Assembly: GCA_017792345.1 (NCBI GenBank)
Contig: CP051228.1
Coordinates: 4,060,148-4,124,147 of the forward strand
DNA: 64,000 bases
Direction: 5' to 3'
From: Mesoflavibacter sp.
GTDB taxonomy: Bacteria; Pseudomonadota; Alphaproteobacteria; UBA8366; Aestuariispiraceae
Position 1 is the first letter of the stretch, and each line of letters opens with the position of its first letter. Below, in pieces: positions 30,861-35,730 of the stretch. The notes under the pieces are model-generated. The model saw nothing but the letters and a program-made list of their open reading frames with translations. It did no database searches and was not told where the DNA came from. The position numbers were made by a program, and so were the translations under genes.

Positions 30861-31445
30861 TTAGCCCGCCAAACCTGCGAACAAGGGAGATTCTCCCGAA
30901 ATCTCATCACCATCCGGTTGCCGGTGGGTCCGAGCCGCGACGGGCGTGGCGTTGCGAATGATGTCGAGGACCGGGCAATGGGCATCGACGGTCCGCTTCA
31001 ACCGGTCCAATTCGGCCGCGGGGGCGTCACTGTCCAACTCGACCTGAATATCCAGACCGCGAAAGCCGGGGCGGGCGCCGGGATCGACCGCAAACATGCC
31101 GCGCAGATCGATATCGCCTTGAACCGTCGCCGAGACGCCGCGCAGCGGAATCCCGAGCTTGTCGGCATAGAGGCGATAGGTGATCTCCTGACAGGACGCA
31201 ATTGCCGCCAGGACCAGTTCGATCGGGTTCGGGCCGAGATCCTGGCCGCCCAGCGCCTTCGGCTCGTCAACCGTCAGCAGATAGTCGCGCGCTTCAACCT
31301 CGCTGTGCAGACCCGAGATCTGGCGGGACTGCACTTCGAAACGCGCGATGGCCTTGTTGGGATTGTCCTGGATATCGGCGGCGATCCGGTCGAACGTGCC
31401 TGCGAAACCGCCTTTTGTGGAGGTATCCTTGACTGCAATAGACAT
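30861..31445 (-). CDS. OsmC-family protein
   Basis: OsmC/Ohr-family proteins reduce organic or sulfur peroxides with a pair of cysteines. Here the two conserved cysteines are C85 in AAIASCQEITYR and C157 in VDAHCPVLD. The 194-residue protein has the usual GPNPIELVLAAIASC core, with an extra N-terminal stretch of about 45 residues. AAGG precedes the ATG. The gene begins 31 bp after metY on the same strand and a terminator follows it, so the two are very likely co-transcribed under the SAM-II leader. The substrate is unknown; a link to sulfur metabolism is inferred from context only. Confidence 0.88.
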   Translation of the reverse strand: MSIAVKDTSTKGGFAGTFDRIAADIQDNPNKAIARFEVQSRQISGLHSEVEARDYLLTVDEPKALGGQDLGPNPIELVLAAIASCQEITYRLYADKLGIPLRGVSATVQGDIDLRGMFAVDPGARPGFRGLDIQVELDSDAPAAELDRLKRTVDAHCPVLDIIRNATPVAARTHRQPDGDEISGESPLFAGLAG

Positions 31446-31476: not shown

Positions 31477-32793
31477 TTATGCGGCGGCCGGAACGGCTTT
31501 TGCCGCTACAGCAAGCGCTTGGGACAGGTCGGCCAGAATATCGTCGATATGTTCGATCCCCACGGACAGGCGGACATAGCTGTCCGTGACGCCGGTGCGA
31601 TGTTGTTCTTCGACGCTCAACTGCGAATGCGTGGTCGTGGCCGGGTGGATGGCCAGGGACCGCGCATCCCCGATATTGGCGACGTGATAGAACAGGCGCA
31701 GCGCGTCGATGAACGCGGCGCCGGCCGCCTTGCCGCCTTTGATGTGGAAACCGACCAATCCGCCATGGCCGTTTTTCAGGGCCGCCGCCGCCCGGTCGCG
31801 TGCCGTGCCTTCTTGCAGGCCTGGATAGATCACCCCGTCTACCTGAGCATGTTTGGACAGGAATTCCGCGACGGCGGCTGCATTGCGCGAATGTTCGCGA
31901 ATGCGCAGCGGAAGCGTTTCCAAGCCCTGGATGATCTGGAAGGCGTTGAAGGGGGACAGCGCCGCGCCAAGATCGCGCAGCAGGGTTACGCGCGCCTTGA
32001 TGATATAGGCGATCGGCCCCAGCGGTTTGACGGCCTCGGTCCATACGGCACCGTGATAGGACGGATCAGGCTGGTTCAGATAGGGCTGGCGGTCCTTGAA
32101 ATCCTCCCAGGGGAAGTTGCCGCCGTCGACGATCAAACCACCGATCGAGGTCCCGTGGCCGCCGATGTATTTCGTCGTGGAGTACACGACGACGGCCGCA
32201 CCCAGATCCAACGGGCGGCAGAGAACCGGCGCGGCGGTGTTGTCGACGATCAGGGGAATGCCCAGTTCGCGGCCGATCGCGGCGACTTCCGCAATCGGGA
32301 AGACTTCCAGTTTCGGGTTCGGCAGCGTTTCCGCGTAATAGGCGCGGGTGCGCTCGTCGGTCGCCTTGCGGAAGGCTTTCGGATCCGCCGGATCGACGAA
32401 ACGGACCTCGATACCCTGGTCCTTGAACGTGTTCGCGAACAGGTTCCAGGTGCCGCCGTACAGGTTCGTGGAACTCACAATGTTATCGCCGGCATGGGCG
32501 ATGTTCTGGACCGCGAAGGCGCTTGCCGCCTGGCCCGACGCGACGCCCAGGGCCGCGACGCCGCCTTCCAGGGCCGCGACACGCTTTTCCAGGACGTCGA
32601 CGGTCGGATTCATGATCCGGGTATAGATGTTGCCCAATTCCTGCAGCGAGAACAGCTTCTGGGCATGTTCCGCACTGTCGAACTGATAGGACGTCGTCTG
32701 ATAGATCGGCACGGCGACCGCATTGGTCGCCGGGTCCGCGCGATAGCCCGCATGGAGGGCCAGGGTCTCGGGATTGTTCGTTTCGTTCGCCAT
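31477..32793 (-). CDS. metY: O-acetylhomoserine sulfhydrylase (aminocarboxypropyltransferase)
   Basis: This PLP enzyme makes homocysteine from O-acetylhomoserine and sulfide, the direct-sulfhydrylation route to methionine. The 438 residues match the MetY branch of the Cys/Met metabolism PLP family. The PLP lysine is K208 in YSTTKYIGGHG, the pyridine-binding Asp is in LIVDNTAAP, and the phosphate-binding segment is ASGQAASAFA. GGAGA precedes the ATG by 8 nt. The gene is preceded by two SAM-II-like aptamers, so high SAM should lower its expression. Methionine gamma-lyase or cystathionine gamma-synthase are less likely because of length and the riboswitch context. Confidence 0.93.
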   Translation of the reverse strand: MANETNNPETLALHAGYRADPATNAVAVPIYQTTSYQFDSAEHAQKLFSLQELGNIYTRIMNPTVDVLEKRVAALEGGVAALGVASGQAASAFAVQNIAHAGDNIVSSTNLYGGTWNLFANTFKDQGIEVRFVDPADPKAFRKATDERTRAYYAETLPNPKLEVFPIAEVAAIGRELGIPLIVDNTAAPVLCRPLDLGAAVVVYSTTKYIGGHGTSIGGLIVDGGNFPWEDFKDRQPYLNQPDPSYHGAVWTEAVKPLGPIAYIIKARVTLLRDLGAALSPFNAFQIIQGLETLPLRIREHSRNAAAVAEFLSKHAQVDGVIYPGLQEGTARDRAAAALKNGHGGLVGFHIKGGKAAGAAFIDALRLFYHVANIGDARSLAIHPATTTHSQLSVEEQHRTGVTDSYVRLSVGIEHIDDILADLSQALAVAAKAVPAAA

Positions 32794-32825
32794 CGTCGCT
32801 TTCTCCGTTGTTTGTCCGGGGCGCG

Positions 32826-32852
32826 CCCGGAACCCTGTTGGCGGGTTCCGGG
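32826..32852 (-). other. Strong leader hairpin between the second aptamer and metY
   Basis: A perfect 10-bp stem, CCCGGAACCC/GGGTTCCGGG, with a 7-nt loop lies between the proximal SAM-II element and the metY ribosome site. No T-run follows, so it is not a classical intrinsic terminator. It may be part of the expression platform or a Rho-related or stabilising structure. Confidence 0.6.
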
Positions 32853-32923
32853 GGCTCCGGAGGGTCTCCAGCGAGGATCCGCGCCTCGACCGAACGTCCC
32901 GAATGAAAGGGCGCCGGCTGGCG

Positions 32924-32975
32924 TCGCTTTAGCAGTTGATGACGCGGTGCAAGCTGATCCTCAAATCACCGCGGG
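32924..32975 (-). ncRNA. SAM-II riboswitch, proximal copy
   Basis: Read on the minus strand, CGCGGTG pairs with CACCGCG over 7 bp (32973-32967 with 32949-32943). The loop carries the SAM-II core GATTTGAG and GCTTGCA, and downstream comes AACTGCTAAAGC. These are the conserved elements of the SAM-II (metA-type) pseudoknot found mainly in Alphaproteobacteria before methionine genes. It ends about 130 nt before the metY ATG. Confidence 0.85.
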
Positions 32976-33098
32976 CGCGCCTTGGGCCGAATGGAAGCCG
33001 TCGGCGTGCCAGGGCGCCGACCTGAATTGGGAGAAGCTTGCGGAGGATACAAATCCGGCCCCTGAGGGCGGGCGACGGGCGATGTTCCGGAAAGTCCG

Positions 33099-33133
33099 AA
33101 AAACAAAAACCGCCGCAGCGTTTGCCGGGCGGT
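33099..33133 (-). terminator. Intrinsic terminator (attenuator) behind the distal SAM-II aptamer
   Basis: The minus strand reads ACCGCC, an inner GGC/GCT pairing, GGCGGT and then TTTTTGTTTTT. It begins 10 nt after the distal aptamer. An alternative hairpin can form between GCGGGTC at the aptamer's 3' end (33148-33142) and GACCGC (33134-33129). That hairpin would block the terminator's 5' arm. SAM binding would then favour termination. The terminator is clear; the switching scheme is inferred. Confidence 0.75.
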
Positions 33134-33143
33134 CTGATGCCGA

Positions 33144-33199
33144 CCCGCTTTAGCTGCATTTGTAAAGCGCCCGCAAGCTGAGCTTCAAATCGGCGCTGA
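33144..33199 (-). ncRNA. SAM-II riboswitch, distal copy
   Basis: On the minus strand AGCGCC (33197-33192) pairs with GGCGCT (33171-33166). Between and after them are GATTTGAAG, CAGCTTGC, TTACAAATGCAGCTAAAG and GCGGG, which match the SAM-II consensus closely. AGC and TGC of the loop can pair with GCT and GCA downstream, giving the expected pseudoknot. It lies about 170 nt upstream of the proximal copy and immediately downstream of a promoter-like sequence. Confidence 0.85.
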
Positions 33200-33204
33200 C
33201 GGAT

Positions 33205-33233
33205 TGGTACTTCGTGACACAGGCGATGGTCAA
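33205..33233 (-). promoter_or_regulatory. Sigma70-like promoter for the SAM-II/metY leader
   Basis: The minus strand has TTGACC (33233-33228), an 18-nt spacer and TACCAA (33210-33205). Transcription would begin near 33198, exactly at the first base pairs of the distal SAM-II aptamer. The position supports the call; the -10 is imperfect. Confidence 0.55.
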
Positions 33234-33375
33234 GAGGAAATTTTCGAACACTGTCCGTCACGACCCGCGTGCCGAATTGGAACAGTTGCTTATCCGTCGC
33301 GAGCGCGGCTTGGGGGTGGCACTGGCGGAGGTCCGACCCTAGGGTTCTTCAGACCTGAATTTGGAGGACACCGTC

Positions 33376-35730
33376 ATGGATCAAACCGCCGCCGACATGC
33401 CCGCTTCTGAGGAGACCATCGAAATCCTCGAGGCGATGGAAGCCAAGATCCGGTGGCTGGCATCATGGACGATCCATAACGCCAATCACCTGCGCGAGAG
33501 CCGCGACGGCTTGAAGGTAGGCGGGCATCAGGCGTCCTGCGCCTCGGTATCGGCAATCATGACGGCGCTCTATCTGCATGTCCTTCAGCCGGAGGACCGC
33601 GTCGCGGTAAAGCCCCATGCCAGCCCGGTTTTTCATGCAATTCAATATCTTCTGGGCAATCAATCGCTGGAGAAGTTAAAGGCGTTCCGGGCTTTCGGCG
33701 GCGCGCAGTCCTATCCGTCCCGGACCAAGGATAACGATACCGTGGACTTTTCGACCGGATCGGTCGGGCTGGGCGCAGCGGTTACCAATTTCGCCGCCCT
33801 GACGCAGGATTATCTGCGGATGAAAGACATGATCCCGACGGATCGGCCGCCCGGTCGCATGATCGCTCTGGTCGGCGACGCGGAGCTGGACGAGGGCAAT
33901 GTCTATGAGGCGCTGATGGATACGTGGAAGCACGATATCCGGAATGTGTGGTGGGTCATCGATTATAACCGTCAAAGCCTCGACGGGGTCGTCAACGAAC
34001 AATTGTTCCGCATCATCGGCCGGTTCTTCCGCGCGGTCGGTTGGAACGTGATCACGTTGAAATACGGATCCAAGCAGATGGCGGCCTTCCAGAAGCCGGG
34101 CGGCACCGCCCTGCGCCGTTGGATCAGCGATTGCCCCAACGACGTCTATTCCGCGCTGGCGTTCCAGGGCGGCCCGGCCTGGCGCAAGCAGATCATGGCC
34201 GACCAGCCACATGATCAGGACCTGCATGCCTTGATCGGCAGCTATGACGATGCCGGCCTGCATGAATTGATGTGCAATTTGGGCGGCCACGACATCCCGG
34301 CGCTGCTGCACATGTTCTCGACGGTGCCCGACGACCGCCCGACCTGCTTCATTGCCTATACGATCAAGGGGTGGGGCCTTCCCTTGATGGGACACAAGGA
34401 CAACCACGCCGGGTTGATGACACCGCAACAGATGGCCGGTTATCAGAAATCGGTTGGTGTCCCGGAAGGGGCGGAATGGGAGCCGCTGGCCGGGATGACG
34501 GTGCCGGAAGACCGGGTGCGGGCCTTTCTGTCGCGCGTTCCTGTGAAGCGGACCCGGCTGCAGGAAGTGGCGAAGGTCCCGGTGCCGGCGGCCCTGACCT
34601 ACAAGCGCACGGCCACATCGTCGACACAGGAAGTGTTCGGCAAGCTTCTGCTGGAAATTGCCAGGGCAGGGGGGCCGCTGGCGGATCGGATTGTCACCAC
34701 CTCGCCGGACGTGTCCGTTTCGACCAATCTCGGTCCCTGGATCAATCAGCGGGGTCTGTTCGCGCGTGAGGACCGGGCCGATGAGTTCAGGGAGCGCAAT
34801 GTGCCCTCGGCACAGAAATGGGTGCGCTCGCCCCGGGGCCAGCATATCGAACTGGGCATCGCGGAGAACGACCTGTTCCTTAACCTCGCGGCGCTCGGCC
34901 TGACGGAAAGCCTGTTCGGCGCGCGGCTTTTGCCGATCGGCACCCTGTATGACCCATTCATCGCGCGGGGCTTGGATGCCCTGAACTATGCCTGCTATCA
35001 GGACAGCCGTTTCATTCTGGTCGCGACGCCGTCGGGAGTGACCCTGGCGCCGGAAGGCGGGGCGCATCAATCGATCTCGACCCCCATGATCGGAATGGGA
35101 CAGCCGGGCCTGACATCCTATGAACCGGCCTATGGCGACGAACTGGCGGTCATTCTGCGCTACGCGTTCGACCATCTTCAGGACGAAACCGATGGCGGAT
35201 CGGTCTATCTGCGCCTGTCGACGCGGCCGATTTCCCAGCCGGAGCGCACGGTCGGCGATGACTTGAGCGACCAGATCATTCGTGGCGGTTACTGGGTCGT
35301 GCCGCCGGAGAAAGGCGCGAAACTGGCTGTCGTCTATATGGGCGCGGTTGCGCCCCAGGCCCTGGAGGCCTTCGAATCCCTGCGCCGGGACCATCCCGGT
35401 GCCGGGTTGATGGCGATTACGTCGGCCGACCGGTTGTACCGCGACTGGCAGCGAATCGAACGGGCCCGTCTGGAAGGGACGGATGGCGGCGCCATGGCGC
35501 ATGTCGAGGACCTGTTCGAACCCTTGGCGGACGACGCCCGGTTCACGACGGTGATCGACGGGCATCCGGTCGCCGTCGCCTGGCTTGGTGCGGTACGCGG
35601 CCATTCCGTTGCGCCGCTTGGGGTGGAAACATTCGGTCAGACAGGTGACCTGATCGACATCTATGCCCATTACGGAATCGATGCGGATCATATCCGGCGC
35701 GCGGCCGCTCGAAAGCCGAATGGCCGTTGA
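33376..35730 (+). CDS. Pyruvate dehydrogenase E1 (AceE)/transketolase-like TPP enzyme
   Basis: The 784-residue protein joins both halves of a thiamine-diphosphate enzyme in one chain, as in homodimeric AceE and transketolase. The TPP/Mg motif is GDAELDEGN (167-175) followed by DYNRQ (196-200). KVGGHQASCAS and SVGLGAA match the AceE N-terminal core, and HIELGIAENDLF carries the catalytic Glu of the second domain. It is about 100 residues shorter than typical AceE, and no E2 or E3 gene is nearby. It could act on pyruvate or another 2-oxo acid, or as a transketolase; the substrate is undecided. I chose the ATG with GGAGG 8 nt upstream over a TTG at 33361. Confidence 0.82.
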   Translation: MDQTAADMPASEETIEILEAMEAKIRWLASWTIHNANHLRESRDGLKVGGHQASCASVSAIMTALYLHVLQPEDRVAVKPHASPVFHAIQYLLGNQSLEKLKAFRAFGGAQSYPSRTKDNDTVDFSTGSVGLGAAVTNFAALTQDYLRMKDMIPTDRPPGRMIALVGDAELDEGNVYEALMDTWKHDIRNVWWVIDYNRQSLDGVVNEQLFRIIGRFFRAVGWNVITLKYGSKQMAAFQKPGGTALRRWISDCPNDVYSALAFQGGPAWRKQIMADQPHDQDLHALIGSYDDAGLHELMCNLGGHDIPALLHMFSTVPDDRPTCFIAYTIKGWGLPLMGHKDNHAGLMTPQQMAGYQKSVGVPEGAEWEPLAGMTVPEDRVRAFLSRVPVKRTRLQEVAKVPVPAALTYKRTATSSTQEVFGKLLLEIARAGGPLADRIVTTSPDVSVSTNLGPWINQRGLFAREDRADEFRERNVPSAQKWVRSPRGQHIELGIAENDLFLNLAALGLTESLFGARLLPIGTLYDPFIARGLDALNYACYQDSRFILVATPSGVTLAPEGGAHQSISTPMIGMGQPGLTSYEPAYGDELAVILRYAFDHLQDETDGGSVYLRLSTRPISQPERTVGDDLSDQIIRGGYWVVPPEKGAKLAVVYMGAVAPQALEAFESLRRDHPGAGLMAITSADRLYRDWQRIERARLEGTDGGAMAHVEDLFEPLADDARFTTVIDGHPVAVAWLGAVRGHSVAPLGVETFGQTGDLIDIYAHYGIDADHIRRAAARKPNGR

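Follow-up and report, generated by a model that had tools for sequence, protein, structure and literature searches.

The leader of metY in the window (the whole stretch of DNA that was analyzed, 64 kb) contains two SAM-II-type elements in series, and from the sequence we favor the reading that these are two different SAM sensors, with the upstream element (copy 1) probably acting as a transcription attenuator and the metY-proximal element (copy 2) as a translational second stage. The evidence comes from the architecture of the two elements, from the recurrence of both in related genomes, and from the genes that follow them.

Two SAM-II-type elements upstream of metY

The metY gene, encoding O-acetylhomoserine sulfhydrylase, occupies positions 31477–32793 on the (−) strand (TIGR01326, 615.5 bits; cut-off, 495.1), with a GGAG ribosome-binding site at 32806–32803 and the start codon at 32793–32791. 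Both SAM-II-type elements lie on the (−) strand between the metY start (32793) and a divergent gene that begins at 33361. This divergent ORF (33361–35730, [+] strand) resembles pyruvate dehydrogenase E1 or transketolase, with a TIGR00759 score of 176.3 bits that falls below the cut-off of 859.9, and metY is followed by an OsmC-like ORF (30861–31445, [−] strand; NF041052, 80.6 bits, below the cut-off of 95). At one locus of a related genome (L012 in G013), the ORF behind copy 2 resembles, by eye, an OsmC-like protein and not metY.

A sequence-only reading of this DNA had described two SAM-II riboswitches in series before metY, each with GATTTG, CTTGC, and GCTAAAG core elements and a paired stem of its own, and this description held up. 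Specifically, the core pattern GATTTG-N5..12-CTTGC-N12..22-GCTAAAG, which was drawn up after both copies had been seen, has exactly two matches in the 64-kb window, both on the (−) strand (33191–33148 and 32967–32927), whereas 100 shuffles yielded no match; TIGR01326 identifies the downstream gene as metY, and each copy has its own P1 (AGCGCC/GGCGCU and CGCGGU/ACCGCG). The spacing, given earlier as ~170 nt, had to be corrected: the GATTTG starts of the copies are 224 nt apart, and 146 nt separate the two Rfam matches. At the gathering threshold, RF00521 reported copy 1 alone in the window (33206–33129; 37.9 bits versus a cut-off of 36), and with a permissive threshold copy 2 was found at 32982–32908 with 24.8 bits, under the cut-off. 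By the terms of the earlier reading, a covariance search in which one copy alone scored would count against it, and the search indeed placed copy 1 above the cut-off and copy 2 below it; we do not take this result as a refutation, because copy 2 fits a variant that lies outside the description of the Rfam model. Across the 4.9-Mb genome, the two copies were the top two RF00521 matches (E-values of 1.1e-6 and 0.0038, with the third at 2.65) and the only two with an E-value of ≤1.

Judged by its sequence, copy 1 (33129–33206, [−] strand) is a textbook SAM-II attenuator, having P1, the conserved core, and the outer pseudoknot helix of that class. By eye, P1 consists of six pairs between AGCGCC (33197–33192) and GGCGCU (33171–33166), and the outer P2 helix joins GCUC (33183–33180) with GGGU (33146–33143) through four pairs, two of which are G-U. 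Approximately 8 nt past the outer P2 helix begins the hairpin of an intrinsic terminator (33099–33134, [−] strand), GACCGCCCGGCAAACGCTGCGGCGGTT and then TTTGTTTTT, which RNAfold predicts at −17.7 kcal/mol and which is followed by a T tract; all five genus sequences retain both the stem and the tract. A simple terminator scan listed no terminator behind copy 1, probably because the stem has a bulge. A possible −35 element, TTGACC (33228–33233, [−] strand), lies ~36 nt before P1, with CTTGAC kept in all five genus sequences and CTTGACC in the three family sequences; a simple sigma-70 promoter scan found no promoter near it. Promoters directly ahead of SAM-II are among the arrangements described by Corbino et al. 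(PMC1273637).

Copy 2 (32873–32974, [−] strand), recognized by its core motifs, appears to be a SAM-II variant in which the outer pseudoknot helix is split by an inserted hairpin. It has the conserved core of SAM-II (RF00521), with GCUAAAG at 32927–32933, as well as P1, in which CGCGGU (32973–32968) pairs with ACCGCG (32948–32943) at six of six positions in five of five genus sequences, none of them varying. Its RF00521 score is too low, and no good outer pseudoknot helix directly follows GCUAAAG; the complementary strand lies past a 45-nt hairpin (32880–32924; RNAfold, −20.1 kcal/mol, closed by CGCC/GGCG). We think that the low score arises because a good outer helix adjoining GCUAAAG is absent. 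Placed by complementarity, the two strands of the predicted helix are GAGGAUC in L1 (5′ strand, 32956–32962) and GAUCCUC (3′ strand, 32873–32879), a perfect complement whose seven pairs are all kept, without variation, in the five genus sequences; a complement of GAGGAUC was found in 28 of 5,000 dinucleotide shuffles of the 133-nt leader. Within the hairpin, the four CGCC/GGCG stem pairs hold in every genus sequence, and the upper helix holds in 74.5% of cells. L3 measures 9 nt, compared with 11 nt in copy 1. Since the outer P2 helix never varies within the genus, the case for it rests on relatives; covariation of copy 2 within the genus amounted to one two-sided pair change, which 394 of 500 shuffles reached.

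Two other folds of copy 2 were considered and set aside. An ordinary SAM-II with a weak pseudoknot beside GCUAAAG was rejected because the strand past the hairpin pairs better and covaries between genera (see below), and a short hairpin, CGCC-AGCC-GGCG, with a GAGG/CCUU outer helix was dropped, GAGGAUC/GAUCCUC being longer and kept in all five genus sequences. At L070, L055, and several other loci, the P1 5′ strand and its flank (GGACCCGCGG) look nearly complementary, by eye, to the 3′ arm of the hairpin and the P2 strand (CCGUGGGCCC), an alternative fold that could explain why P1 hardly varies.

The variant in other Alphaproteobacteria

The earlier reading had treated the elements as a duplicate pair, but they are not one element repeated. 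Model R1 was made from 12 copy-2 sequences with P1 pairs only and model R2 from 25 ordinary SAM-II copies; R2 recognizes copy 1 of the window (81.8 bits versus 36.4 with R1) and R1 recognizes copy 2 (87.9 bits versus 35.8 with R2), each copy being among the training sequences of the model that favors it. The models separate the two types outside the training sets too, as at L093 (R1, 65.0 bits; R2, 28.3 bits). Over 385 genomes of the class, R1 had a match with an E-value of ≤0.001 in 109 and reached 43 bits or more in 66; a hand count from the listing gave 84 rows at or above this line, from which one (G204, 45.3 bits), of the ordinary type by R2, was set aside. For each of the resulting 83 variant-type matches, either R1 gives the higher score of the two models or R2 gives no match at an E-value of ≤0.01. 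The 43-bit line is our own choice, and R1 scores are continuous through 40 to 48 bits; a clear gap between two score groups was not borne out, with three variant-like matches at 40 to 41.5 bits. No match of at least 43 bits was found outside the class among 398 genomes of the phylum (best, 40.9 bits). When RF00521 was run on 20 variant loci, the variant copy passed the cut-off in 1, was weaker in 8, and gave no match at an E-value of ≤0.5 in 11. The genus of the window and the relatives carrying the variant are Rhodospirillales (NCBI taxonomy); the passages on SAM_alpha in a 199-genome survey of proteobacterial methionine regulation, which included nine Rhodospirillales genomes, place it only in Rhizobiales and Rhodobacterales (PMC4239095).

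For the structural tests, R1 yielded 123 matches (119 distinct), of which 112 were kept after 7 proved to be off the motif pattern (including the variant copy of L114), and 90 of these rows were used once 19 of the ordinary type and 3 weak last rows had been set aside. By eye, the consensus of the variant reads CGCGG-GAUUUGA-nGGGC-AGCUUGC-CCGCG-UCAnCAA-GCUAAAGCG, followed by a hairpin (often CCACG...CGUGG) and GCCC. The stem after GCUAAAG had a mean score of 16.2 over 86 tails, compared with 7.05 (sd, 0.50) in shuffled tails, and 66 of the 86 scored at least 12 (~12 expected); in some loci, both sides of the stem are changed, giving CCGUAGGA/UUCUACGG in L113 and CUACGG/UCGUAG in L137.

The strand past the hairpin tracks L1, with the strand pairs GGGC/GCCC, CGGAG/CUCCG, GGGAG/UUCCC, GAGC/GCUC, GGAUUC/GAAUUC, and UGGAGC/GCUCCG, and this pairing covaries beyond re-dealt controls, between genera only. 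Over all 90 copies, the pairing score was 10.95, compared with 9.27 (sd, 0.18) for re-dealt partners, and none of 2,000 re-dealings was as high. The smaller strand sets are the fairer tests because the 90 copies include close relatives: 24 distinct L1 strands without GGGC scored 8.46 versus 7.17 (sd, 0.35; 0 of 2,000 as high), and with one copy per distinct L1 strand (n = 40), again none of 2,000 re-dealings was as high. At least four consecutive pairs form in 66 of the 90 copies and fewer in the other 24. The strand was placed by rule in 85 rows and by hand in 5, all from the window's genus, where the GAUCCUC complement was already known from a rule-based search (G011 and G013); with placement by rule alone (73 pairs), 0 of 500 re-dealings were as high.

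A different departure from SAM-II was seen at L057 (~1548–1626) and L058 (~1499–1578, [−] strand), where SAM-II-like elements have TACTTGA or CACTTGA in place of GATTTGA, terminator-like sequence downstream, and RF00521 scores of 27.4 and 24.6 bits; the ligand of these elements may differ.

Further analysis of relatives revealed that the tandem order recurs. Among 14 genomes of the family, including that of the window, RF00521 detected the pair in four of the five other genus members and in G004, G005, and G006, with two tandem pairs each in G004 and G005 and no match in the fifth genus member, G009. For 21 of the 83 variant matches, an ordinary SAM-II scoring 48 bits or more with R2 lies on the same strand no further than 300 nt upstream, and the other 62 have no R2 match of at least 48 bits in those 300 nt; among the fetched loci, no such match lies downstream of the variant. 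Thirty pairs were examined (20 from the class sample, 1 with a weaker variant match, and 9 from the family and order), the terminator test being run without L081, which is near-identical to L080, and without L071, which has a weak upstream match (36.5 bits). The gap between the copies ranged from 53 to 174 nt and held an intrinsic terminator in all 30 pairs (−14.3 to −24.1 kcal/mol).

Genes and putative leader peptides behind the variant

The genes behind the variant mostly belong to methionine and sulfur metabolism. Pfam was run on 61 of 80 downstream ORFs, the 19 left out being near-duplicates or apparent chance ORFs; since short leader ORFs emerged only later, the set of 61 probably includes some ORFs that do not represent the first true gene. 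The counts cover the 25 of 28 families that were listed, and one protein can match several families. We found 16 Cys/Met PLP enzymes (metY/metZ type), 10 tetrapyrrole methylases, 8 matches to the siroheme-synthase dimeriser, 5 OsmC, 4 NIL domains of MetN-type transporters, 2 PAPS reductases, and one each of homoserine O-succinyltransferase, the MetE N-terminal domain, MTHFR, sulfite/nitrite reductase, and NlpA. Outside sulfur and methionine metabolism, there were two peroxiredoxins, one delta-aminolevulinic acid dehydratase, and one DUF2849. Given the conserved core and this gene context, SAM is the likely ligand of the variant. Translations inspected by eye also place ordinary-plus-variant pairs before siroheme-synthase-like genes (L061 and L064, in G004 and G005) and before tetrapyrrole-methylase-like genes (L059 and L060, in G034 and G035).

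At other loci, the variant precedes a short ORF (start 40–85 nt past GCTAAAG, at most 50 aa), and 23 of 33 such ORFs, several of which are close relatives, have at least two Cys in their last 12 residues, compared with 37 of 451 other short ATG ORFs of the same loci. These leader ORFs end in, for example, CCCRT, CRCRA, or GTCC and occur at L133, L141, L132, L127, L128, L129, L135, L140, L142, L143, L089, L091, L092, L106, L116, L117, and others; none was seen in the window. Among 25 longer ORFs beyond the leader ORFs were seven ABC ATPases (three with a MetN NIL domain) and three LysR regulators, and at L132, L127, L128, L133, and L129, the leader ORF is followed by a small ORF that contains a VVRERGGFRFFAA-like stretch. 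A Cys leader ahead of cysS in Rhodobacterales is on record (PMC8632094). From their sequences, the loci with Cys-rich leader ORFs look like cases in which SAM and cysteine are read within one leader.

We put forward, tentatively, that copy 2 may belong to a widespread, undescribed alphaproteobacterial SAM-II subclass with a hairpin-split outer pseudoknot helix that serves either as a translational second stage behind an ordinary SAM-II with a terminator, as in the metY leader, or alone before short Cys-rich leader peptides (some of them before methionine-uptake genes), SAM and cysteine being read together. If this is true, many SAM-II-type switches in Alphaproteobacteria are unannotated, the variant often escaping RF00521.

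Proposed two-stage control of metY and relation to known systems

We infer that both copies would bind SAM and that copy 2 would act at the level of translation. With SAM bound, the 3′ pseudoknot strand of copy 1 (33146–33143) would be held in the aptamer, the terminator (33134–33099) would form, and transcription would stop; without SAM, this strand could interfere with the terminator, and RNA polymerase would read through. In the read-through RNA, copy 2, which has no strong terminator, would most likely act on the translation start of metY, and metY would thus come under two successive controls, a scheme already put forward in the literature for bi-mechanism SAM riboswitch pairs. Such a pair can reasonably be expected to respond more steeply or at two levels.

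Repression by copy 2 is an expectation from physiology and not from the folds. Because the metY ribosome site lies 66 nt past the copy 2 pseudoknot, its direct occlusion is not obvious. At 59 other variant loci, pairing between the post-hairpin strand and the ribosome site was no better than with re-dealt partners (318 of 1,000 as high), and 12 of 300 controls with shuffled letters were as high; thus, although pairing of the hairpin 3′ arm or the P2 strand with the ribosome site looks striking at individual loci, it does not exceed the re-dealt control class-wide. In the fold of the window, masking the P2 strand raised the accessibility of the metY start from 0.39 to 0.66 (random 7-nt masks, 0.43; 0 of 30 as high), which, in this folding model, points to SAM opening the metY start. 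Over 57 variant loci, mean start accessibility was 0.36 free and 0.44 when both the aptamer and the strand were masked, rising at 30 loci and falling at 6; since masking itself partly causes such a rise, random-mask controls were added for the five genus sequences. In Pelagibacter, the linker of a SAM-II/SAM-V pair is described as inactivating the SAM-II domain (PMC11508383), so a linked pair can include an aptamer that is inactive.

These folds bear on a reading in which copy 2 works in the opposite sense, which we consider unlikely. Here, SAM would capture GAUCCUC into the pseudoknot and free the metY start that this strand otherwise covers, with AUC and UCGCU (32878–32870) pairing with AGCGA-C-GAU (32800–32792); with copy 1 shutting off transcription, the two elements would then form an incoherent pair. 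When the window and G010 are folded without constraints, the eight pairs, start codon included, do form, whether or not the aptamer is present, and in G011 they form only if the aptamer is left out of the fold, but G012 forms only the UCGCU/AGCGA half, and only without the aptamer, and G013 forms the pairing in neither fold. Likewise, masking the strand raises start accessibility in all five genus sequences, with random masks as high in 0 of 30 cases for the window and 1 of 30 each for G010 and G013, but the rise stays within random masking in G011 (7 of 30) and G012 (6 of 30), and in G013, masking the aptamer alone yields most of it. The folds carry no tertiary contacts, masking removes competitors, and nothing was seen over the 59 other loci. 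Effects of SAM-II on stability and translation are reported to be opposed in S. meliloti metA (PMC9373788), but activation of metY translation by SAM makes little physiological sense.

It is quite improbable that copy 2 binds another ligand, such as SAH or another sulfur metabolite, which would make the leader a true two-input switch. In other riboswitch classes, there are structural variants whose ligand has changed, and copy 2 does combine its shorter L3 (9 versus 11 nt) with a changed outer helix, but it keeps the AUUUGA, CUUGC, and GCUAAAG segments, and most of the genes that follow the variant are ones a SAM sensor would be expected to control. The SAM-binding core is described as common even to SAM-II and SAM-V (PMC6061858). 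Control of termination by both copies, a purely pseudo-cooperative arrangement, seems very improbable as well. Some tandem SAM-II pairs are described with a terminator behind each aptamer (White et al. 2022, PMC9481103), and a strong G+C-rich hairpin predicted by folding, CCCGGAACCC/GGGUUCCGGG (32826–32852, [−] strand), lies between copy 2 and metY, where it, or a Rho-dependent site, could serve copy 2; however, this hairpin lacks a T tract and is missing from two of the five genus sequences (G010 and G011), and a terminator-like site of −10 kcal/mol or lower follows the second copy in only 1 of the 30 pairs, the window reaching just −7.5 kcal/mol. Least of all do we expect copy 2 to be a decaying, functionless duplicate of copy 1: although it scores under the Rfam cut-off and its upper insert differs among species, its core, P1, and outer P2 strands are unchanged in the five genus sequences, and the subtype recurs in 66 of 385 class genomes; for 62 of its 83 matches, the preceding 300 nt contain no ordinary SAM-II that reaches 48 bits with R2.

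Among the closest known systems is SAM-II itself (RF00521, SAM_alpha; Corbino et al. 2005, PMC1273637): as in the elements described there, P1 and the GAUUUG/CUUGC/GCUAAAG core are present in both copies, each of which could also form a pseudoknot, and the genes are alike in serving methionine synthesis. The terminator typical of SAM-II follows copy 1, whereas copy 2 differs by the hairpin between GCUAAAGCG and the outer P2 3′ strand, by its shorter L3, and by its sub-cut-off score. The outer helix is the one named P2b after PMC5352136, and PMC6061858 calls the same helix P2a. We found no description of a hairpin-split SAM-II in the main text of open papers, and a description elsewhere is quite possible. 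SAM-II long loops (RF01726) is, like copy 2, a structural variant of SAM-II, but its extra pairing lies in the P1-enclosed loop, whereas the hairpin of copy 2 is 3′ of GCUAAAG; copy 2 scores 16.8 bits with RF01726 (cut-off, 44). SAM-V was absent from the seven matches at an E-value of ≤10 in the permissive Rfam search; as described, it has an extra helix, P3, between P1 and the P2 3′ strand (PMC6061858), whereas the hairpin of copy 2 lies past GCUAAAG, within the outer P2 strand.

The tandem SAM-II arrangement itself is already known: the 44 tandem SAM-II pairs counted by White et al. (2022, PMC9481103) include some in which a terminator follows the first aptamer and the second controls the ribosome site, and that study also counts 149 SAM-II/SAM-V pairs. 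The suggestion of a logic gate does not fit, because the two sensors probably share one ligand; that study classes same-ligand pairs as pseudo-cooperative or bi-mechanism, separately from its Boolean pairs, and its terminator-then-ribosome-site pairs give precedent for two-stage switching by a single ligand, so that no logic gate is indicated. One feature of bi-mechanism pairs, an intrinsic terminator after the first aptamer, is found behind copy 1 (−17.7 kcal/mol, T tract). The metY leader likewise has two SAM-II-type aptamers before one gene and probably belongs to the terminator-then-ribosome-site type described among such pairs; the second aptamer is not presented as a structural variant in the portions of that study dealing with them. 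Pairs such as this one are a natural test bed, holding differently built SAM-type aptamers, one transcriptional and one probably translational, in a single leader. In this respect, they parallel the SAM-II/SAM-V tandem (PMC9481103; Feng et al. 2024, PMC11508383), in which a first SAM-II with a terminator is described as being followed by a second, related but distinct pseudoknot aptamer that acts on translation.
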